Assembly (NCBI RefSeq): GCF_034259325.1
Contig: NZ_JAXIVS010000021.1
Span: 62,001 to 126,000 of the forward strand
Source of the DNA: Hyalangium ruber
GTDB taxonomy: Bacteria > Myxococcota > Myxococcia > Myxococcales > Myxococcaceae
Length of the DNA stretch: 64,000 nt
Direction: 5' to 3'
Made by a program: the position numbers and the translations under genes
The notes under the pieces: generated by a model
What the model was told of the DNA's origin: nothing
What the model saw: the letters and a program-made list of their open reading frames with translations, nothing else
The model's database searches: none
In this document: positions 11,383 to 21,605 of the stretch, in pieces
How positions within the stretch are numbered: the first letter of the stretch is position 1
How the letters are laid out: each line of letters opens with the position of its first letter

Positions 11383-13323
11383 ATGGTGGCAGGGACACTC
11401 ACTCTCCTGGTCCTGACCTTGACCGGTCAGACCGTCGCGCTGCGCTCCGACAAGCCCTTCGTCACCTCCCGGGAGAGTGCGCGCATCGAGCTGCGCGTGC
11501 TGGATGAGACGGGTCGCCCCGTGCGCGGCGCCCGCGTCTCCTTGACCGTCAACGTCGGCTCCGTCACCGAGCCGGTCGCCACGCGAGAGGGTCCGCTCGT
11601 CGCCACCTACCGCCCCGCCACGCAGGAAGGGGCTCAGGTGGCCCTGTTCCACGCGACGGTGAAGTCGGGGCCCGCCTCCGGCTCGGGGGGGTGGCTCTCG
11701 CTGCCCATTCACGGGCGACACCTGCTGCGCGTGCAGGCTCCACCCCGCGCGCGGGTGCGCGTCTCCATCGAGGGCACCTCCTTCGGGCCTGTCACAGCTG
11801 GGGCCGATGGGACCGCCACCGTGCCGGTGGAGCTTCCCCCCGGAATCTCCAGCGCCCAGGTCACCACGGTTGACCGCTCCGGCCAGAGCCGCACCCAGGA
11901 AGTCCCGCTGCCCGCGCCCCGCTTCGCCCGGATCCGGCTGGTGGCTCCCGCCGAGGCTCCGAGCTGGGAGAAGCCTGTGCGGATCCAGGGCTTCGTCGTG
12001 GACGAGCGCGGCAACCCGGCCCTCTCCCTGCCGCCGATCGCGGTCAGCACGGAGCGGGGCACGCTGGGGCCCATCGAGCCCAAGGAGGGCGCCACCTTCG
12101 AGGTTCCGTATACCGGCCCGGAGCAAACTCAAGCGCCGGTGACGCTGTCCGCCTCCACCGTGGAGGATGCCGAGCGGGCCTCCACGCTCCAGCTCGCGCC
12201 TCGGCCCGGTCCCCTCGCGCGGCTGGGGATCACCCTGTCGCCGGCAAACTTCACGGCGGGCTCCACCGAGCCCATCGTCATCGAGGCCGTGGGCTATGAC
12301 GCCAAGGGCAACCCGCTGCCCGCACCTCCCGCGACGTTCTCCACCGAGGTGGGCACGCTCGAGGCCGAGGAGGGAGGCCGACGCGCGCGGATTCGCCCGC
12401 CCGATGCGTTTGGCGCGAAGAAGGCGCTGGCCATCCGCGTCCAGGCCGGAGCCCTTCAGGGCCAGGGAGAGCTGGCGCTTCAGAGCGGCCCACCCGTGCG
12501 GGGGGAAGCCTCCGTCCAGCCGGCGCTCTCGGGGAACGGGGATGAAGTCGAGGTGACCGGCCGCTTCGTGGATGCCTGGGACAACCCCGTCGATGGGCTG
12601 AGCGTGGTGGGGACCTCGCCTTCGGGGAGCCTGACGGGACCGGAGGCGCTGGGAGAGGGCCGCTACCGCTTCCGCTTCTCCCCTGCTCCCGGTCAGGCGG
12701 TGGGGGGCTCGGCTCCGTTCGAGCTTCGGGCGGAGGGCTTTCCCGTGGCGACCTCGGGCACGGTGCCGGTGCTGGCACGGCGGACGCGGTGGCAACCCTC
12801 GCTGGGGCTGCTCGGGTTCGTGCAGAGCAACACGGCCCTCTCCAACAGCTTGGGGATGCGAATGGAGGGCTCGCTGCGGATCGCCGATCTGCCGTGGGAG
12901 GCGCTGCTGCAGCTCGAGGCCCGGTACAACCGGCGGGAGACACAGCTCCTGTCGTCCTCGGACTCGAGTTCGGTGGAGAAGGTGTTCTCGCTGAACGGCT
13001 ACAGCGCGAGGTTGGGCGCACGCTGGAGCCATCCCGTGCTGCGCCGGGGCGTGCTGTTCGCGGACGCCAGCGCGGGCTACCTGCGGATGAGCGGGCAGGT
13101 GAAGGTGGAGGGACTGGGCGAGATGGTCCCCCAGCCGATCCTATCGCGAGGTCTCGTCGTCTCCGTGGGCGGCGGACTCGGGTGGACGATGGGGCCCGGC
13201 AGGCTCGTCGGACAGCTCCAGTGGGCCCAAGCTCCGGGTCGCGGGCTGGTGAGCGGCAACCTCGGTGGGCTGTCGCTGGGGGCCGGGTACCAGCTTCCGC
13301 TCTCAGGAGGCGTGGATCGATGA
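11383..13323 (+). CDS. Cluster A: Ig-repeat protein with C-terminal beta-barrel
   Basis: 646-aa exported protein. It has a short N-terminal signal (LTLLVLTLTGQTVA), then Ig-like domains to about residue 465 (e.g. SARIELRVLDETGRPVRGA, VRIQGFVVDERGNPAL, VEVTGRFVDAWDNPVDG), then a C-terminal region of alternating beta strands (SLGLLGFVQSN, LLQLEARYNRR, SVGGGLGWTMGPG, SLGAGYQLPL) that looks like a small outer-membrane barrel. Residues about 121-176 hold a module (IEGTSFGP, AGADG, PPG, VDRSG) clearly shared with the cluster B protein at 45184-47118. It overlaps the next gene by 4 bases. Probably presents Ig domains from the outer membrane. Confidence 0.8.
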   Translation: MVAGTLTLLVLTLTGQTVALRSDKPFVTSRESARIELRVLDETGRPVRGARVSLTVNVGSVTEPVATREGPLVATYRPATQEGAQVALFHATVKSGPASGSGGWLSLPIHGRHLLRVQAPPRARVRVSIEGTSFGPVTAGADGTATVPVELPPGISSAQVTTVDRSGQSRTQEVPLPAPRFARIRLVAPAEAPSWEKPVRIQGFVVDERGNPALSLPPIAVSTERGTLGPIEPKEGATFEVPYTGPEQTQAPVTLSASTVEDAERASTLQLAPRPGPLARLGITLSPANFTAGSTEPIVIEAVGYDAKGNPLPAPPATFSTEVGTLEAEEGGRRARIRPPDAFGAKKALAIRVQAGALQGQGELALQSGPPVRGEASVQPALSGNGDEVEVTGRFVDAWDNPVDGLSVVGTSPSGSLTGPEALGEGRYRFRFSPAPGQAVGGSAPFELRAEGFPVATSGTVPVLARRTRWQPSLGLLGFVQSNTALSNSLGMRMEGSLRIADLPWEALLQLEARYNRRETQLLSSSDSSSVEKVFSLNGYSARLGARWSHPVLRRGVLFADASAGYLRMSGQVKVEGLGEMVPQPILSRGLVVSVGGGLGWTMGPGRLVGQLQWAQAPGRGLVSGNLGGLSLGAGYQLPLSGGVDR

Positions 13324-14150
13324 GGCGCTGGGGAATCACTCTCGGGCTGATGCTCCTGAGCGCGGTGGCGCTGGCCGCGGCCCCGGCTCCGAGCGCGACC
13401 GGCACGGTGTGGATCACCCTGCAGCCCCAGCCCTCGGGGCCCTTGAAGGCTCCCCGCGTCCGGGTCGAGGGCAAGGAGGTCCCCACGAACCCGAGCGGAG
13501 CATTCCGGGTGGACGGGCTCGCGGGTGGGTGGGTGGCGATCCAGGCGTCGGCGGAGGGCTACCAGCCGCTGGAGCGGAAGGTGCAACTGCCCGCGGGTGG
13601 GCAGACCAGTGTCCTGCTGCCCCTGGAGCGCATCCGAGAGCCGGGCACCCTGCGCGGCCGGATCATCCGCCAGGCCGGTGGGGCGGGCGCGAAGGTCCCG
13701 CTCGCGGATGTGGAAGTGCAGCTCGGCGGCCAGGGGGTCGCCCGGAGCGACGCGGACGGTCGCTTCGTGCTTTCGGCCGTGGGGCCTGGACCGGTCTCGC
13801 TGAAGCTCCTGGGCGCGGGAGTCCGGCCCCAGGAGGAGGTGGTGGTCATCCCGCCGGGAGGTGAAGCCTCCATCGAGGTCGCCCTGCAGAAGGCCGAGGA
13901 GGTGCTGGCGTGGATGCGCGGGAAGGTCCGCTCCACGCAGGGCCAGCCGTTGCAGGCCACGCTGAAGGTCGCCGAGCGGAAGCTCAAGGCCCGCACCCGC
14001 CCCACGGGAGACTTCGAGTTCCGCCTGCCCGCGGGGCGCTACCAGGTGACCTTCGAGGCGCGCGGCCACATCGCGCAGACCAAGACCGTCGACGTGGGGG
14101 CGGGAGATCAGGCGCTGTTCTACGTGGACCTGTCGCCTCTGGAGAACTGA
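13320..14150 (+). CDS. Cluster A: carboxypeptidase-regulatory-like repeat protein
   Basis: 276-aa exported protein. The ATG at 13320 overlaps the previous stop (ATGA) and follows AGGAGG at 8 bases. Signal peptide MRRWGITLGLMLLSAVALAAA, shortened by processing after ALA, then three to four small beta-sandwich repeats of the CarboxypepD_reg / PEGA type, each ending in patterns such as GAFRVDGLAGGWV, DADGRFVLSAVGPG and GDFEFRLPAGRYQVTF. Such domains mediate protein interactions in the envelope. It has no clear counterpart in cluster B, where the giant barrel instead carries an N-terminal SdrD-B-like domain of similar type. The role is inferred from position only. Confidence 0.78.
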   Translation: MRRWGITLGLMLLSAVALAAAPAPSATGTVWITLQPQPSGPLKAPRVRVEGKEVPTNPSGAFRVDGLAGGWVAIQASAEGYQPLERKVQLPAGGQTSVLLPLERIREPGTLRGRIIRQAGGAGAKVPLADVEVQLGGQGVARSDADGRFVLSAVGPGPVSLKLLGAGVRPQEEVVVIPPGGEASIEVALQKAEEVLAWMRGKVRSTQGQPLQATLKVAERKLKARTRPTGDFEFRLPAGRYQVTFEARGHIAQTKTVDVGAGDQALFYVDLSPLEN

Positions 14151-14153
14151 GCC

Positions 14154-16055
14154 TTGCGCGCCCTGTCCCTCACGCTCCCGCTGTTGCTGCTGCTCTGGGC
14201 CTGCAAGAAGGACCCTGTCGCGCCCGGGCTGGCGACGCTCACCCAGGTACAAGGACAGGTCTCCGTGCAGCACGGCGTGGAGACCCGTCCAGGAGCCCTG
14301 AACCAACCCCTGTACCAGGGCGACACCCTGGTGACCGGGCCCACGAGCGCGGCGAAGGTGCGCTACGTCAACGGCGTCGAAGTGCAGGTGAGCGAGAACA
14401 GCCGCTTCCGCATCAACGGCACGCCGGGAGCCCTCACGCTGGAGCTGGAGGAAGGCCGCATCGTCTCCACCGCGCCAAAGGACGCCGAGACGGGGCTCAC
14501 CGTCACGGGGCGCTTTGGCCGGGCGGAGCTCATCACCGCCTCGGAGCTGGTGCTGGATCTCCGCTCCGCCAGGCCGCGCCTGACCCTGGAGTACGGAGAG
14601 ATCCGCGTCATTGACCCCGAGGGAGAGACCATCCCCCTGGTGGTGGCGCAGGAGCTCGAGCTCCCCGTGCGCAAACCCAAGCAGGCGGAAGAAATCCCGT
14701 TCATGCGCGCGACGGAGATCGTGTTCGTGCTCAAGTCCCAGAACGGAAAGGCGCGCGTGCGGGACTCCCAGCAGGCCGCCTTCACCGAGGTCTCCTCCGA
14801 TCAGCCGCGCGAGCTGGGCGCTGGCGCGTCCTTCGAGGTCCCCGCGCAGGCCACTGCGCGTCTGTCCTCCAGCGAGTTGCAGGTGAATCTGGAGGGGGAC
14901 ACCGCGGGGACGCTCACCGCGGCCTCCCGTCAGGGCGAGCAGCGCTCCTATGCCCTTCAGCTCAGCCGAGGAAAGGCGCAGCTCCAGTTCGCGCCGGGAC
15001 AGCACTCCCTGAAGCTCACCGACGCCCAGGGCTCGGTGGAGCTCAAAGTCAACGAGCAGAGCGCGATCTCGGTAAGCCACCCTCAGGAGGGCTCCCGCGT
15101 GACGGTCCTCACCGGTCAGGTCGAGCTGCTGGCGGATGGGAAGAGCACCGTCCTCAAGGCGGGAGAAGGAGTGAACCGCTCGGCGACGGCGGCACAGCAG
15201 GGAGCCCCGGACACGACCCCGGCGCTGGTGCTGCCCGCGAACGCGAAGGTGCGCGTCTTCTCGGACACCGTCTCCGAGGCGGGGATCCGCGTCCCCGAGG
15301 CGACCAGCGGGCCGCTGCGCGTGGAGGTGGCAGGAGAGCCGGCCTTCCGTGAGCCGCTCCTGGCGGGGCGCGTGGGCGAGAACTGGGTGCGGATCGCGCC
15401 TCCCGCCAAGGGCGAGCTGCACTGGCGCTTCCTCTCGGAGGATGGCACCCCGCGCGCCCAGGGGTCCGCGCGCTTCCAGCCCGACCGAGGCCTCTCCTCC
15501 CTGTCCGGAAAGAGCCCCCGAGCCGAGGTCCTCGAGACGGGGCTCAAGGCCTCCATCTACTTCCAGGGCGCGGCCCCTTCGCTGCACTTCAACTTCGATG
15601 CCCGCGAGGGAGCCCGCTCCTACCGGTTCCGCATCTTCCGCGCCAACGATCCGCAGCGGCCGTTGCTGGAGCGGGCGGCGAGCCGGACGGAGTTCACGCT
15701 GGAGCCGGGCGCGCTCGGCGAGGGGAACTATCTCTGGTACGTGGCGGCGCTGGGCGCGGGGGGCGAGGAGCTCTCCGGCGGACGGATGAACAAGCTCGAG
15801 CTGGTGTACGACAACGCGCGGCGCGGGCTGGCCATCAGCCGTCCCAAGCCTGGGGAGCGCGTCGGACGGGGCGACGTGCCCTTGGAGGGAGTCGCTCCCG
15901 TGGGCTCACGCCTGTCCGTCAACGGCCAACCCGTGGCGCTCGATGCCAAGGGCCGGTTCTCCCAACGCCTGCCCTCCGCCCAGGTCCTGGTGTTCCGCCT
16001 GCTGTCGGACCAGGGTGAGGCATACTGGGTGCGCAACCTCCGGAGCGACAGGTGA
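14154..16055 (+). CDS. Cluster A: FecR-domain lipoprotein
   Basis: 633-aa predicted lipoprotein starting with TTG at 14154 (3 bases after the previous stop, GGAG upstream). The signal peptide ends in a lipobox (LLLLWAC, then KKD). Residues about 25-135 form a FecR-like domain (LTQVQGQVSV, QGDTLVTG, VQVSENSRFRI), and a second FecR-like stretch lies near 210-345. The C-terminal 75 residues form an Ig-like domain (VPLEGVAPVGSRLSVNG). The same FecR plus terminal domain pairing occurs in the shorter cluster B protein at 47218-48210. No sigma factor is nearby, so this is not a classical FecIR pair. It overlaps the kinase gene by 4 bases (GTGA). Confidence 0.84.
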   Translation: MRALSLTLPLLLLLWACKKDPVAPGLATLTQVQGQVSVQHGVETRPGALNQPLYQGDTLVTGPTSAAKVRYVNGVEVQVSENSRFRINGTPGALTLELEEGRIVSTAPKDAETGLTVTGRFGRAELITASELVLDLRSARPRLTLEYGEIRVIDPEGETIPLVVAQELELPVRKPKQAEEIPFMRATEIVFVLKSQNGKARVRDSQQAAFTEVSSDQPRELGAGASFEVPAQATARLSSSELQVNLEGDTAGTLTAASRQGEQRSYALQLSRGKAQLQFAPGQHSLKLTDAQGSVELKVNEQSAISVSHPQEGSRVTVLTGQVELLADGKSTVLKAGEGVNRSATAAQQGAPDTTPALVLPANAKVRVFSDTVSEAGIRVPEATSGPLRVEVAGEPAFREPLLAGRVGENWVRIAPPAKGELHWRFLSEDGTPRAQGSARFQPDRGLSSLSGKSPRAEVLETGLKASIYFQGAAPSLHFNFDAREGARSYRFRIFRANDPQRPLLERAASRTEFTLEPGALGEGNYLWYVAALGAGGEELSGGRMNKLELVYDNARRGLAISRPKPGERVGRGDVPLEGVAPVGSRLSVNGQPVALDAKGRFSQRLPSAQVLVFRLLSDQGEAYWVRNLRSDR

Positions 16056-17788
16056 GCGGAGTTCCATCCTCAGGCGTCATTCCCCTCACCCGGCCGGCCG
16101 CTCCGCGCCGCTTCGGCCAGTACCTGCTCTTCCGCAAGCTCGCCGAAGGAGGCATGGCCGAGCTCTACCTCGCCAAGCAGATCGGCGCCGAGGGCTTCGA
16201 ACGCGACGTGGTGATCAAGTGCATGCTCGATCACCTCTCCAAGAACCAGGACTTCATCTCGATGTTCCTGGACGAGGCGCGGCTGGCGGCGCGGCTGCAC
16301 CATCCGAACATCGTGCAGATCACCGATCTCGGCGTGGCCGACGATCGCTACTTCATCTGCATGGAGTACCTCGCGGGAGAGGATCTGGATTCGCTGATCG
16401 GCTGCTCGCGCCACAAGGGCGAGGCCATCCCCATTCCGGTCGCCGCGCGAATCATCCTCTCGGCGCTCGAGGGGCTGGAGTTCGCCCACGGCTACCAGGA
16501 GCAGGGCCAGTCCGTGGGGCTCGTCCACCGGGACGTCTCCCCCTCGAACATCTTCGTCACCTACCAGGGCACCGTGAAGGTGCTGGACTTCGGGATCGCC
16601 AAGGCCTCCTCCCGGATGACCCAGACCCAGCCCGGGCTCCTGAAGGGCAAGTGGGGATACATGTCCCCCGAGCAGGCCCGGGGCGAGTCGATCGACGCGC
16701 GCAGCGATCTGTTCTCGCTGGGCATCACCTTCCATGAGCTGCTCACCGGGCGCCGGGTGTTCGAGCGGGACCACGAGATCGGCGTGTTGCTGGCGCTGAT
16801 GGCCCAGCCCATCCCTCCGCCCAGCACGCTGCGTCCGGACATTCCTCCAGCGCTCGACCGGATCGTCATGAAGGCGCTGGAGCGGCAGGCCGACGATCGC
16901 TACGCGAGTGCCTCCGCGATGCGGGCGGACCTGGAGGACTTCCTCCGCTCGACGCCTTCGGTCTCAGGCATCTCCCACCTCGCCCAGTACATGCAGGGCC
17001 TGTTCGGACCTGTCGAGGTGGCGAACAAGACGAAGATCCCCTCGCTCACCGAGCTCGCCGCGATCCGCGTACCCACGCCTCCGCCGCCTCAGGACGAGCG
17101 CATCGGGTACGAGAAGACGCTGGTCCGACCGACGGATCCGGGCGAGGGCTCCAGCCCCGCCGCGCCAGCGCGTCCGTCCACCGACCGGCAGCCGCTTCCG
17201 GCGCCCGTCCCTGCCACCCCTCCCCGCCAGAGCATGGCCGTGCCCGTGGCCATTGGGGCGCTGGTCGCGGTGGTGCTCCTGGCGTTGGGCGGAGGCGCGG
17301 CCTGGTACTTCCTGTTCCGCACGCCCGCTCCGGCGCTCTCCGTCACGGCTCCGCCTGTCGCGATCCCGGCGTCTCCGGTGGAAACGCCTCCGCCTGCCCC
17401 TCCAGCTCTCCCCACCGCGCCCGTGGCGCAGCCGACTCCGCCGCCGGCCACTCCTGCTCCGGAGCCGACCCCGGAGCCCGTGGCGAAGCCCAAGATCCCC
17501 GCCAAGCTCAGCCAGAGAGAGATCGACCGGGTCTTCAGGAAACACCGCGAGAGGCTGCTCGCATGTGGAGAGAAGTTCAGCACCGACATTCCCCCGAGCC
17601 GTCGGGTGAAGCTCCAGATGAGCCTCAAGAACTCCGGAGAGGTGTATGACATCCGGATCTCCGAGCCCACCTCTCTGGCACCTGAGCTGGCGAAGTGCCT
17701 GATCGCCCGAATGGAGGCGGCGAGGTTCCCGCCCTCTCAGACGCCCGTGCTCCGGCTCGAGCTCCCGCTGGTGTTCAGCGAGCGCTGA
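16052..17788 (+). CDS. Cluster A: transmembrane serine/threonine protein kinase
   Basis: 578-aa Hanks-type kinase. The catalytic motifs are intact: Gly loop LAEGGMAEL (30-38), VIK with Lys56, Glu75, HRD at 159-161, DFG at 179-181 and SPE at 205-207. A Pro-rich linker leads to one membrane helix at about 396-422 and a periplasmic C-terminal domain of the AgmX/PglI or TonB-like type (REIDRVFRKHRERLLACGE, KLQMSLKNSGEVYDI). The GTG start overlaps the FecR gene stop, so kinase and FecR protein are made together, suggesting that the kinase senses or controls this envelope complex. Last gene of cluster A; transcription may continue into the RNA ligase cassette 35 bases on. Confidence 0.92.
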   Translation: MSGVPSSGVIPLTRPAAPRRFGQYLLFRKLAEGGMAELYLAKQIGAEGFERDVVIKCMLDHLSKNQDFISMFLDEARLAARLHHPNIVQITDLGVADDRYFICMEYLAGEDLDSLIGCSRHKGEAIPIPVAARIILSALEGLEFAHGYQEQGQSVGLVHRDVSPSNIFVTYQGTVKVLDFGIAKASSRMTQTQPGLLKGKWGYMSPEQARGESIDARSDLFSLGITFHELLTGRRVFERDHEIGVLLALMAQPIPPPSTLRPDIPPALDRIVMKALERQADDRYASASAMRADLEDFLRSTPSVSGISHLAQYMQGLFGPVEVANKTKIPSLTELAAIRVPTPPPPQDERIGYEKTLVRPTDPGEGSSPAAPARPSTDRQPLPAPVPATPPRQSMAVPVAIGALVAVVLLALGGGAAWYFLFRTPAPALSVTAPPVAIPASPVETPPPAPPALPTAPVAQPTPPPATPAPEPTPEPVAKPKIPAKLSQREIDRVFRKHRERLLACGEKFSTDIPPSRRVKLQMSLKNSGEVYDIRISEPTSLAPELAKCLIARMEAARFPPSQTPVLRLELPLVFSER

Positions 17789-17823: not shown

Positions 17824-18564
17824 GTGCGCCTCGGTCCTGATCCGGAGTTTCGCCCGCTCGGTGGAAAGGCCTACGGCTCCATCCCGCACCTTCCAGGCTC
17901 TCGTACCGGCCCCGCGGATCGACACCTCGCTCCCGGGCTCGCGCGGCGCTGTACCGACACGGCGCGCGATGGGGCCGAGCACGTGGTGGTGCTCGAGAAA
18001 CTCGACGGCTCCTGTGTGGCCGCCGCGCGCTTGGGAGACACGCTCGTCGCGCTCGGTCGAGAGGGTCGGCTCGCCGCGCACTCTCCCAACGAAGCGCGCC
18101 GGCTCTGGGCCGCGTGGGTCGCCGCGAACGCGGACCGCTTCCTCGCCATCCTCCAGCCCGGCGAGCGGCTCGTTGGAGAGTGGCTCGCCCTGGCCCATGG
18201 CACGCGGTACGCGCTGCCGCACGAGCCCTTCGTCTGCTTCGATCTGATGCGGGAGCGCGAGCGGCTCCCCTGGCGCGAGCTGGTGGAGCGCGCTCGCGCC
18301 GGTGGCTTCGTGACACCAGGGCTCGTCCACGAGGGTGGCGCGTTGAGCATCGAGGCGGCGATGGAGCGGCTGCGCGGCGGCGGCTTCCACGGTGCGGTGG
18401 ATCCCGTCGAAGGCGCGGTCTGGCGGGTGGAGCGGCGCGTGGGCGAGACGGTCCGCGTGGACTTCCTGGCGAAGTACGTGCGGCCCGACAAGATCGACGG
18501 CAGCCTGCTCCCCGAGAACACCGGGCTCCCGTCCGTCTGGAACTGGCGCCCGGAGGCGTCGTAG
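17824..18564 (+). CDS. RNA ligase family protein (nucleotidyltransferase, KxDG)
   Basis: 246-aa covalent nucleotidyltransferase of the RNA ligase family. Motif I is VVLEKLDGS with Lys59 as the predicted AMP-accepting lysine. Motif III is FVCFDLM (136-142), motif IV EGAVWR (196-201) and motif V DFLAKYVRPDK (213-223, Lys217). The family seals RNA ends via ATP. There is no N- or C-terminal accessory domain and the protein is shorter than T4 Rnl1/Rnl2, though within the range of bacterial stand-alone ligases. The GTG start has a weak ribosome site. It is followed 21 bases later by the Ham1-like fusion and then a nucleotidyltransferase, which suggests an RNA repair or editing cassette. Confidence 0.85.
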   Translation: MRLGPDPEFRPLGGKAYGSIPHLPGSRTGPADRHLAPGLARRCTDTARDGAEHVVVLEKLDGSCVAAARLGDTLVALGREGRLAAHSPNEARRLWAAWVAANADRFLAILQPGERLVGEWLALAHGTRYALPHEPFVCFDLMRERERLPWRELVERARAGGFVTPGLVHEGGALSIEAAMERLRGGGFHGAVDPVEGAVWRVERRVGETVRVDFLAKYVRPDKIDGSLLPENTGLPSVWNWRPEAS

Positions 18565-18585
18565 GCCGCAAGGAGCCCCTCACGC

Positions 18586-19779
18586 ATGCCACGCGCCTTC
18601 TTCGTCACTGGCAACCAATACAAGGCCGAGGAGATCTCCCGGCTCCTCTCCGGCCTCGACATCGTCTGGCGGAAGCTCGCCCTCCCCGGGCTCGAGCCCG
18701 CCGCGCCGGAGCAGGGACCGATCGACCTGGCCGCCCTGGCCCGTCGCAAGGTGCTGGCGGCCTGGCAGGCGCTGGGGGCTCCGTGCTTCGTCGAGACCAC
18801 GGCGCTCGAGTTGGACGGCGTGGCCTCCTTCACCGGGGCCCGCTTCAAGAAGCAGTGGCTCGCGCAAGGCGAGCAGGCCTTCCTGGCGACCCATGGGGGC
18901 TGCCGAGGCCGGGTTCGGGTGGCCGTGGCGTTCTCGGAGGACGGCGTCGCGGAGCACGTCTCGGTCTTCGAGGGCTCCATCGAGGGCACGTTGCTCGCGG
19001 CACCCCGTGGCGATGGGGGCTACGGCTGGGATCCCGCCTGGCTGCCCGACGGCTATGCGCGCACGCTCGGAGAGATGGCGCAACAGAAGTTCTTCCTCAA
19101 CATGCGCCACCGGCCCTACCTGGAGCTGGCGGACCGGCTTCGGGAGCATTCGATCGGTGGCCCCTATGAGGCCCATGTGACGATCGCGACGCGTTCGGAG
19201 GAGGACCTCGAGCGCTTCCGTGCCTTCTGCGGCGCCGCGGGGGTCAAGTGCATCTTCATCGAGCTGGGCCAGGGAGCGGTTCGCTTCCAGCCGATGACGG
19301 CCTCGTACCACCACGGGCCGCTCCGGCAGGCGCTGGACGAGGTGCAGACGTTCGCGCGCTCCCTGGCGGCCGACGGCTTCGATGTGACGCGGCTCAAGAT
19401 CGAGGCGCTGGGCACCAACCGCGACATCCCCGAGGAGGATGCGGCGGCGAAGGCCCAGCCGGCGAACTACTTCGAGTTCCACGTGAAGGTGACGCTCCCC
19501 TCGGTGGGCGCGGACCTGGAGGCGCTGCGGGCTCGCTGTGAGCGGCATGGCGCGCACCTGTCGCGCAACGCGCGCAAGGTACGGGCGGACGGTGCCTCCG
19601 AGCGCTTCGTCACGCTGCGCATTCGCGGCCTGGGTCGGGCGAATGCCGACGCGCGCTTCACGGCGCTGCTGCGGGAGCTGGCGGAGACGGAGCTGCCCCT
19701 CTCCTACCCGCTGCGCGAATACACGGTCTACGACTCGAACCAGGGGCTCGATCGGGGCTGGGGCGAGGTGCTGACGTGA
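18586..19779 (+). CDS. Ham1/ITPase-like domain fused to a duplicated C-terminal domain
   Basis: 397-aa protein. Residues 1-186 follow non-canonical purine NTP pyrophosphatases (Ham1/RdgB): FFVTGNQYKAEEI (5-17), ETTALELDGV (70-79, where RdgB has EDTGL), FTGARFKK (82-89), GGYGWDPAW (144-152) and LGEMAQQKFFLNMRHR (161-176). Residues 190-397 are a second region that looks duplicated: YEAHVTI...DLERFRAFCGAAG and FEFHVKV...DLEALRARCERHG share the same spacing. The first copy carries a 2H-like HVT triplet. The EDTGL to ETTAL change may alter metal binding. It overlaps the next gene by 4 bases. Function unproven; nucleotide clean-up or RNA end processing are possibilities. Confidence 0.82.
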   Translation: MPRAFFVTGNQYKAEEISRLLSGLDIVWRKLALPGLEPAAPEQGPIDLAALARRKVLAAWQALGAPCFVETTALELDGVASFTGARFKKQWLAQGEQAFLATHGGCRGRVRVAVAFSEDGVAEHVSVFEGSIEGTLLAAPRGDGGYGWDPAWLPDGYARTLGEMAQQKFFLNMRHRPYLELADRLREHSIGGPYEAHVTIATRSEEDLERFRAFCGAAGVKCIFIELGQGAVRFQPMTASYHHGPLRQALDEVQTFARSLAADGFDVTRLKIEALGTNRDIPEEDAAAKAQPANYFEFHVKVTLPSVGADLEALRARCERHGAHLSRNARKVRADGASERFVTLRIRGLGRANADARFTALLRELAETELPLSYPLREYTVYDSNQGLDRGWGEVLT

Positions 19780-20576
19780 ATCCCACGCCTCCCGTGCTCG
19801 CCGCGGCCATGGGCCTGCTCCGGCGCCTTGCCCGCTCGCCCGTGGCGGAGGAGCTCATCCTCCGGGGCGGGATGATGATGCGCCTGTGGAGCGGCTCGGT
19901 GCCTCGACCGGTGGAGGACATCGACTTCCTGGCCCGCTTTCCCTTCGACGCGGCGGCGACGGTCGCGAGGCTCGAGTCCCTCTGCCGCGTGGAGGTCGAA
20001 GATGGGATGCGCTTCGGTGCGCTGCGCTCCGAGGTGATCTGGGCCGAGACAGCCTTCCCGGGAATGCGCGTCTTCGTCGAGGTGGCCCTGCGCGACACCG
20101 AGCAACCCTTGGAGCTGCGGATCGACACCGGCTTCGGCGATCCCATGGACCCTCCCGCGATGTGGATGGACCATCCGCTCGAAGAGGGCACCGCCGCCCG
20201 CGTCCTCGCCTGCCGGCCCGAGACGCTGTTCGCCTGGAAGGTCCATGGCCTCTTCGAGCGAGGTCCTGGACGCTTCCGCCCCAAGGATCTCTTCGACGTC
20301 TACCTGCTGGCCAGGCACGCCCCGCTCGATGCGGCGCTGCTGCCCCGGGCGCTGCGCCTGGCTTTCGACTCGCGCGGCGACTCACTCGAACTCACCTCCC
20401 GACTGGTCGCGGGTGAGTTCGGACAGAGCCCCTGGAGCCTTGAGAAGTGGGCACGTTTCCGCAACAGCCTGCCGGAAGGCCGGCCCGAGCAGCTCTCCGA
20501 GGTCGTCACCTCGGTCGCGCGGGTCCTCGGCCCGGTGGTGACGGTGGCCATGGCACTGCCCTCCAGGATGGAGTAG
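19776..20576 (+). CDS. AbiEii/AbiGii-type nucleotidyltransferase
   Basis: 266-aa predicted nucleotidyltransferase of the AbiEii toxin / MNT superfamily. The active-site signature LRGGMMMRLWSG (29-40) is followed by RPVEDIDF (44-51) with the metal-binding Asp48/Asp50. Later come PETLFAWKVHGLFER and RPKDLFDVYLL, the usual AbiEii Lys and Asp motifs. AbiEii and MenT-type relatives transfer nucleotides to RNA or proteins. The GTG start overlaps the Ham1-fusion gene (GTGA). No AbiEi-like antitoxin is adjacent. Its partners here are an RNA ligase and a Ham1-type protein, so it may add nucleotides to RNA rather than act as a classical toxin. Confidence 0.82.
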   Translation: MNPTPPVLAAAMGLLRRLARSPVAEELILRGGMMMRLWSGSVPRPVEDIDFLARFPFDAAATVARLESLCRVEVEDGMRFGALRSEVIWAETAFPGMRVFVEVALRDTEQPLELRIDTGFGDPMDPPAMWMDHPLEEGTAARVLACRPETLFAWKVHGLFERGPGRFRPKDLFDVYLLARHAPLDAALLPRALRLAFDSRGDSLELTSRLVAGEFGQSPWSLEKWARFRNSLPEGRPEQLSEVVTSVARVLGPVVTVAMALPSRME

Positions 20577-20615: not shown

Positions 20616-21605
20616 ATGCAAGTCTTCCGCACCACTGGCGCTGGCGGTCCCGAGGTCCTCGCTCCCGAAGCTCGCCCGGACCTCACGCCAGGTCCCTCCG
20701 AGTTGCTCATCCGCGTGCGCGCCACGGCGCTCAACCGCGCGGACCTGCTCCAGATCAAAGGCCACTACGCGCCACCGCCTGACGTGCCCCAAGACATCCC
20801 CGGCCTGGAATACGCGGGAGAGGTCCTCGCCGTGGGCCCGCGCGCGCGCCGCTTCCGGCCAGGCGATCGGGTGATGGGCCTGGTAGGCGGAGGTGCCTGG
20901 GCCGAACAGCTCACCGTCCACGAGCGCGAGGTGCTCCCCATGCCGGAGGGCATGGACTTCACCGACGCCGCCGCGCTGCCCGAGGTGTACCTCACCGCCT
21001 TCGATGCGCTCGTGCTCCAGGGCGGAATGCGGACCGGAGAGACGGTGCTCGTGCATGCGGTGGCCAGCGGCGTGGGCTCCGCGGCGGCGCTCCTGTGCCG
21101 GGCAATGGGGGTTCGCGTGGTGGGCACCGGTCGCAACGCCGCGAAGCTGGAGCGCACGCGCGAGTGGGGGGTCGAGCGGACCATCCACGTGGAGGGAACG
21201 CCGCCGCGCTTCGCCGAGGCCGTCCGCGAAGCCACGGGAGGCCGAGGCGCTGATCTCGCGCTGGATCTGGTGGGCGGGGACTATGTCCCGGAGACGCTGG
21301 AGGCGCTCGCGCCGCAGGGCCGGGTCATGCTCGTGGGGTTGGTCGCGGGCAACAAGGCCCAGCTCCCCCTGGGGGTCATCCTCATGAAGCGGCTGCGCAT
21401 CACCGGCACGGTGCTTCGCAGCCGCCCGCTGGAAGAGAAGATCGCGCTAGCACAGGCGGCCGAGCGTCACCTGCTGCCGCTGTTCCGCTCGGGGGCCCTC
21501 AAGCCCGTCATCGACGCCGTGGTACCCATGCGAGACATCCGGGAAGCCCTCACTCGCATGGCGAGCAACGAGACCGTGGGCAAGGTCGTCCTGCGCTGGG
21601 ACTGA
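20616..21605 (+). CDS. NAD(P)H-quinone oxidoreductase, PIG3/zinc-less MDR family
   Basis: 329-aa medium-chain dehydrogenase/reductase of the quinone oxidoreductase (QOR/PIG3) group. Start MQVFRTTGAGGPEVL, a GroES-like fold (TALNRADLLQIKGHY, VPQDIPGLEYAGEVLAVG), a Rossmann region (VLVHAVASGVGSAAALL) and the C-terminal SRPLEEK motif typical of PIG3 relatives. The structural zinc Cys residues are absent, as expected. It reduces quinones or enals with NADPH. It stands 39 bases after the nucleotidyltransferase gene with its own ribosome site (CGAGG), so co-transcription is possible, but the biochemical link is unclear. Confidence 0.92.
   Translation: MQVFRTTGAGGPEVLAPEARPDLTPGPSELLIRVRATALNRADLLQIKGHYAPPPDVPQDIPGLEYAGEVLAVGPRARRFRPGDRVMGLVGGGAWAEQLTVHEREVLPMPEGMDFTDAAALPEVYLTAFDALVLQGGMRTGETVLVHAVASGVGSAAALLCRAMGVRVVGTGRNAAKLERTREWGVERTIHVEGTPPRFAEAVREATGGRGADLALDLVGGDYVPETLEALAPQGRVMLVGLVAGNKAQLPLGVILMKRLRITGTVLRSRPLEEKIALAQAAERHLLPLFRSGALKPVIDAVVPMRDIREALTRMASNETVGKVVLRWD

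Follow-up and report, generated by a model that had tools for sequence, protein, structure and literature searches.

The three-gene cassette at positions 17,824 to 20,576 of the window, the 64,000-nucleotide stretch of Hyalangium ruber DNA that was analysed, looks like an unstudied variant of the AbiE-like anti-phage toxin units with an RNA-sealing enzyme added. We assign a probability of roughly 0.45 to the reading that an AbiEii-type nucleotidyltransferase (NTase) and the C-terminal domain encoded just upstream (CTD) form an AbiE-like conflict unit, which has acquired a phage-lineage RNA ligase and a pseudo-Ham1 domain. The CTD family, an uncharacterised partner domain, is the most interesting element of the cassette.

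Cassette layout and distribution

Three open reading frames, all on the plus strand, make up the cassette. The first (17824..18564, GTG start) encodes a 246-residue RNA ligase of the phage-type subfamily of the covalent nucleotidyltransferase superfamily. The second (18586-19779, ATG start) encodes a 397-residue fusion, in which residues 1-192 form a Ham1/RdgB-like domain (18586..19161), predicted to be a pseudoenzyme or nucleotide sensor, followed by the CTD (19162..19779), the NTase partner in the antitoxin position. The third (19776..20576) encodes the 266-residue NTase of the AbiEii/MenT/AbiGii type, with a GTG start that overlaps the stop codon of the CTD. The coordinates agree with the tight spacing described in an earlier sequence-only reading of this DNA, with a 21-bp gap between the ligase and fusion genes and a 4-bp overlap (GTGA) between the fusion and NTase genes. 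Neither a nuclease nor an end-healing enzyme was recognised among the cassette genes.

On the left, a protein kinase-like gene (16052..17788, plus strand) lies outside the cassette; it ends 35 bp before the ligase gene and is not found beside the cassette in relatives. The right-hand boundary is a PIG3-family quinone oxidoreductase gene (20616..21605, plus strand; TIGR02824, 2e-101), likewise outside the cassette, which keeps its synteny with an agmatinase-type gene in many relatives that have no cassette. In relatives, the 5 kb on either side of the cassette contain none of the window neighbours tested. Moreover, the sister genome G099 has orthologues of the kinase and PIG3 genes about 5 kb apart, with unrelated genes between them and the cassette absent; the kinase orthologue there occupies 12104-13876 of locus L166 and is followed by these unrelated genes. 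Neighbours that are not retained, together with this empty equivalent site, fit transfer of the cassette as a single module.

The same arrangement is found repeatedly in Myxococcota, and the trio of ligase, CTD and NTase is also present on a Deinococcus plasmid, with the ligase gene in divergent orientation; this recurrence is far above chance. Co-occurrence elsewhere had been set beforehand as the test of the sequence-only reading, and it was found. Among 195 Myxococcota genomes, 29 have a strong CTD match (>100 bits) and 28 a strong ligase match (>200 bits), and all 28 ligase genomes also carry the CTD, a count inflated by shared descent, given that these genomes are mostly related members of one family and do not represent 28 independent events. 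The single genome with a CTD and no ligase (G148) has a locus that reaches a contig edge inside Ham1, and in G068 the ligase and CTD are on different contigs. The NTase is present in 28 of the 29 CTD genomes, at a distance of about 4 kb from the CTD in G151; CTD loci without an NTase are those of G185 and G580, that of G134 being weak. Within genera of Myxococcota the cassette is patchily distributed. In five more Myxococcota genomes (G077, G078, G081, G118 and G125) the CTD-NTase pair is diverged and the ligase is missing, and the pair also occurs without an adjacent ligase in cyanobacteria and actinobacteria, as separate genes with the CTD directly upstream and often overlapping. There the CTD is rare (3/396 Actinomycetota and 2/386 Cyanobacteriota genomes), and a search for PF09414 found no ligase in three of the eight CTD-bearing cyanobacterial and actinobacterial genomes, one of the three having a broken NTase. 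Since the pair exists elsewhere without ligase or Ham1, we regard the CTD-NTase pair as the core and the other two parts as add-ons.

The nucleotidyltransferase and its partner domain

The AbiEii assignment made in the sequence-only reading is borne out by a match to AbiEii (PF08843, E=1e-30), the sole Pfam match of the NTase at E<=1, and by invariant active-site residues. The protein also matches the PADLOC model PDLC02319 (1e-99), its family profile finds the AbiGII structure 9hlo (4.9e-31), and none of D48, D50, K155 and D174 varies among 15 homologues. MenT1, a tRNA-modifying toxin of this NTase family, requires D41, K137 and D152 (PMC10435456), which by motif appear to correspond to D48, K155 and D174. 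MenT toxins are controlled by phosphorylation of a Thr/Ser two residues before the active-site Asp (PMC11375011, PMC10435456). Unlike in MenT, the aligned position is V46 in the cassette NTase and a Ser/Thr in none of the 15 aligned homologues, so this route of control looks unavailable judging from the alignment. In two cyanobacteria, a broken NTase stands beside an intact CTD, one with an in-frame stop (L057) and one with about 27 recognisable residues (L058). Such remnants are expected if the NTase is harmful and fit this idea, with the proviso that the search was CTD-seeded and biased against finding an intact NTase that has lost its CTD.

The CTD comprises about 205 residues after Ham1 (residues ~194-397 of the fusion) and belongs to no Pfam family. 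It matches the PADLOC 'AbiEi' model PDLC02277 (5.4e-65), and the PDLC02277/02279 'AbiEi' models also match the CTDs of cyanobacteria, actinobacteria, Deinococcus and jumbo phages. Given that the CTD is a separate gene directly 5' of the NTase in the three bacterial groups, and that in the window it fills the antitoxin position and overlaps the NTase start, the previous claim of an NTase with no antitoxin is not supported. A 53-sequence alignment revealed 15 invariant residues (in CTD numbering, E3, H5, T7, R77, K79, E81, Y103, E105, H107, T151, R153, E186, D191, D197 and W200). In the AF2 model (pLDDT 93.8), the CTD is predicted to fold into two ferredoxin-like beta-alpha-beta-beta-alpha-beta lobes. 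By hhalign the lobes are homologous repeats (probability 96, E=3.6e-9), and both carry an E-x-H motif at the same place. The fold thus modelled appears enzyme-like. No close solved structure was found in the PDB, where the leading matches are generic ferredoxin-like proteins with a TM of only ~0.44; the viral library, by contrast, contains true relatives, from phages of Aeromonas and Sinorhizobium and from giant viruses of the Klosneuvirus type.

Several assignments of the CTD were tried and rejected. A 2H/LigT phosphoesterase, prompted by an H-x-T motif, has no convincing match in Pfam (a lone one at E=0.06 among the 53 members) and is not among the 50 fold matches listed. CYTH/TTM gave no Pfam match and is likewise missing from the fold matches listed. 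As for a classical AbiEi, no AbiEi or HTH Pfam model matches in the cassette at E<=1, and the predicted fold is an alpha/beta double ferredoxin-like one.

The CTD was found in 19 phage records and in 42 viral-contig loci, the latter through a phage-seeded alignment; viral contigs scanned with the bacterial CTD gave no match, and an alignment mixing phage and bacterial sequences proved too diverse to be of use. In most of the 41 phage loci examined, the CTD is fused to a MazG-like domain with an EExGE...EExxD pattern. AbiEii is present in none of 31 CTD-bearing phage records. Since the CTD occurs without AbiEii in jumbo phages, its basic activity cannot be NTase inhibition alone; the CTD must also do something that does not depend on AbiEii. 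A tie of the phage CTD to RNA ligase through proximity was rejected, with 5 of 22 within 8 kb, which is not above chance (P=0.12).

The RNA ligase and the Ham1 domain

The ligase matches RNA_ligase (PF09414, E=2.8e-17) and phrog_38169 (1.9e-32), and its motifs I (K59-L-D-G), III (G-E119-W), IV (E196-G) and V (K217) are unchanged in 11 homologues, in line with the intact KxDG RNA ligase reported previously. An AF2 model built on an alignment of the window and genome-scan loci only (pLDDT 87.6) has RNA ligases as its best Foldseek matches in the PDB, at moderate TM (query-normalised ~0.45-0.56 for the leading ones). The nucleotidyl-lysine motif, motifs III/IV/V and the ligase fold that mark ATP-dependent RNA ligases are all present by sequence and by model. 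The same subfamily occurs in 47 phage contigs, mostly at 45-57% identity to the window ligase, and more distant relatives in Flavobacterium phages and on a Rhizobium plasmid. CTD, NTase and Ham1 are found within 5 kb of the phage ligase in none of the 47 contigs, no partner gene recurs at these loci, and tRNAs there are few. The ligase is therefore separable from the other parts; as its relatives suggest, it is probably of phage lineage and was then recruited to the cassette. In a CTD-bearing cyanobacterium, a related ligase adjoins an HD/AAA_33 kinase-like gene.

The strict coupling of a motif-complete ligase to the CTD in Myxococcota is compatible with an RNA-repair operon, in which the CTD would heal ends (e.g. 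by removal of a 3' or cyclic phosphate), the NTase would restore nucleotides and the ligase would seal, so that tRNAs cleaved by toxins or by anticodon nucleases are rescued. The RlaP-ligase modules of jumbo phages provide a precedent (PMC7824862), and the duplicated E-x-H motifs of a CTD found in jumbo phages and giant viruses, as well as the kinase-like neighbour of the cyanobacterial ligase, point the same way. However, the NTase is AbiEii and no RlaP-family match was found in the cassette, CTD-NTase pairs occur without an adjacent ligase or in genomes without PF09414, the CTD has no convincing 2H/LigT match, and its phage homologues are not near ligases above chance. On balance, we consider a repair operon about half as probable as the AbiE-like unit, or slightly better.

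Residues 5-168 of the fusion protein match Ham1p_like (PF01725, E=3.2e-20), and the best solved relative in a PDB search is KomB of the Kongming system (8zsg, 1e-17). Active Ham1 enzymes of the RdgB/ITPA type have a catalytic Asp and an SHR motif. The former residue is presumably equivalent to the general-base Asp of Maf. In Maf pyrophosphatases, which are related, the equivalent Asp serves as the general base (PMC3899018). In the window Ham1, both this Asp and the SHR His are gone, with VETT in place of VEDT/ADDS and NMR in place of SHR. Throughout the aligned cassette members the Asp is replaced by T, N, A or V, and VETT/VENx and NMR are found in nearly all; KomB has VEHT and SMR at the matching motifs, and a housekeeping Ham1 copy elsewhere in the host genome retains ADDS and SHR. 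The fold named in the sequence-only reading stands, but two key catalytic positions are substituted: judging from these residues, ITPase activity has probably been lost from the Ham1 part, which probably serves as a sensor or scaffold instead. In a tree, the cassette Ham1 forms its own clade, and nesting within the KomB clade was not supported. Ham1 is missing from 5 of 29 CTD loci with the rest intact, and is therefore dispensable; in four of the five (L043, L045, L018 and L051), an in-frame deletion has left a scar with the first Ham1 residues still in place. No Ham1-CTD fusion was found outside Myxococcota among the loci examined. Away from the cassette, the host genome has a separate SIR2-HAM1 pair.

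The kinship to KomB and the loss of the same catalytic positions raise the prospect of a nucleotide-signal defence, in which phage infection raises a non-canonical purine nucleotide (dITP, for example) whose binding by the Ham1 pseudoenzyme releases the NTase, as in KomB/KomC; dITP activates KomBC (PMC12948488, PMC12774641). This scheme appears unlikely, given that Ham1 has been deleted from several loci, that its fusion to the CTD is confined to Myxococcota among the loci examined, that the tree does not put it inside the KomB clade, and that the cassette has no KomA-like deaminase. Least probable is a metabolic house-cleaning link, with the CTD acting on products of NTP-cleaving partners (phage MazG and Ham1, while NTase and ligase release pyrophosphate), which would suit its fusions to MazG-like and Ham1 domains and its mostly charged or His invariant residues, suggestive of an enzyme, but is at odds with a Ham1 without key catalytic residues and with a patchiness in bacteria unlike housekeeping, and leaves the tight pairing with a toxin-type NTase unexplained.

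A putative model and its relation to known systems

AbiEii relatives lengthen tRNA 3' ends, and a putative model of the AbiE-like unit can be proposed on this basis. The NTase would extend RNAs at the 3' end by adding nucleotides, with tRNA acceptor ends as its most likely target, in keeping with the perturbation of tRNAs upon AbiE toxin expression (PMC7725324). The CTD, translated just ahead of it, would restrain the NTase; as the CTD is two-lobed and enzyme-like by prediction and not a DNA-binding AbiEi, this control is probably enzymatic or through direct binding. In Myxococcota, Ham1 without its key catalytic residues would probably bind a non-canonical purine nucleotide and tune the CTD. 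The ligase, in Myxococcota and Deinococcus, may serve for repair or escape by sealing RNA breaks with 5'-phosphate and 3'-OH ends, and could mend RNA upon firing of the unit or after cleavage by phage or host nucleases. Co-inheritance, the CTD-NTase overlap, the pair without ligase elsewhere, the toxin family of the NTase and the broken NTases support the AbiE-like core. Against it stand the CTD without AbiEii in jumbo phages, the separable ligase and the CTD loci without an NTase.

The cassette resembles AbiE, MenAT and AbiGii in having an AbiEii-family NTase with invariant active-site residues and a partner directly upstream in an overlapping gene, both of which PADLOC labels AbiE. It differs from these systems in a partner without HTH or AbiEi Pfam domain, and in the added RNA ligase and Ham1. 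With Kongming (KomABC) it shares a HAM1-fold protein whose general-base Asp and SHR His are replaced; unlike Kongming, its ORFs include no KomA deaminase or KomC SIR2, and its Ham1 is fused to the CTD, dispensable and of a separate clade. As in the RlaP modules, a polymerase-beta-type NTase is encoded with an ATP-dependent RNA ligase, whereas here the NTase is AbiEii, no kinase or phosphatase is recognised and the core pair exists without the ligase. The jumbo-phage MazG-CTD proteins belong to the same CTD family with the same invariant residues, joined to a nucleotide pyrophosphatase-type domain and, unlike the cassette, with no AbiEii in their records; the likeness of the giant-virus homologues is by fold match only. 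In the open-access part of the literature, no relevant report joining AbiEii with an RNA ligase was found. Overall, the sequence-only reading holds for co-occurrence, NTase type and ligase motifs, and gives way on the antitoxin; its Ham1/ITPase-like label fits the domain in fold.

A bolder proposal, which we hold to be rather improbable though less so than the nucleotide-signal scheme, is that the CTD represents a new enzyme family whose substrates are nucleotides or RNA ends, with separate uses in jumbo phages, in giant viruses and, as the regulator of an AbiEii toxin, in bacteria. It draws on the double ferredoxin-like fold, the two E-x-H motifs and the invariant R-x-K-x-E and T-x-R. In myxobacteria, the dead Ham1 would then be a sensor of a non-canonical purine nucleotide for the toxin and the captured phage ligase would undo RNA damage; if true, the cassette would amount to an immune system that has a nucleotide sensor as well as a repair arm of its own.

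AbiEii/MenT toxins have a variety of antitoxins, whose mechanisms are still under study. Being common to jumbo phages and giant viruses, the enzyme-like CTD family has an activity that can be assayed outside the toxin context. In addition, the cassette offers a test of nucleotide sensing by Ham1 pseudoenzymes beyond Kongming, and of whether some defence systems come with their own repair arm in the form of an RNA ligase.

CTD architectures and losses around it

On jumbo-phage contigs (L082–L117), most proteins carrying the C-terminal domain of the Ham1 fusion protein (CTD) have an N-terminal MazG-like domain fused to it, as exemplified by L082:4689-5606. This MazG-like domain retains the EExGE...EExxD pattern, and the Pfam MazG models score the proteins slightly under the model cut-offs. 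Fold homologues of the CTD are also present in Klosneuvirus-type giant viruses of protists, with TM values of 0.76–0.82 normalised by query (BFVD A0A7D3QXP7, A0A5K0U8W2, A0A1V0SJD9 and A0A2H4UU17, annotated as uncharacterised). At loci L043, L045, L051 and L018, the Ham1 domain is deleted in frame, leaving scars of at least two distinct shapes directly upstream of the CTD. In two cyanobacteria, the CTD is intact and the adjoining nucleotidyltransferase has decayed, to a remnant of about 27 residues at L058:5635-5715 and by an in-frame stop at L057:5603-6553.

Solitary, rearranged and possibly decayed ligases

The RNA ligase subfamily (230–250 residues), with an HLPGSR motif in its N-terminal part, is common as a solitary gene in phage contigs (L169–L215), mostly shorter than 80 kb. 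In Pyxidicoccus caerfyrddinensis (L044:1030-4421), an extra gene is inserted between the ligase and Ham1-CTD genes, which left a complete ligase together with a second, C-terminal ligase fragment; genome G127 holds a similar fragment. A ligase copy in genome G132 (C6:386703-387410), interrupted by one in-frame TAA, is possibly a pseudogene.

A separate SIR2–HAM1 locus in Hyalangium ruber

Elsewhere in the Hyalangium ruber genome, a SIR2_2 gene and a HAM1 gene overlap (C12:259069-259581, locus L078). The HAM1 protein carries the motifs VEHGALCID...FHWDP and is near PDB 9v0g, and the SIR2 protein is ThsA-like by PADLOC score. The two genes make up a putative NAD-depletion pair, Kongming-like or related.
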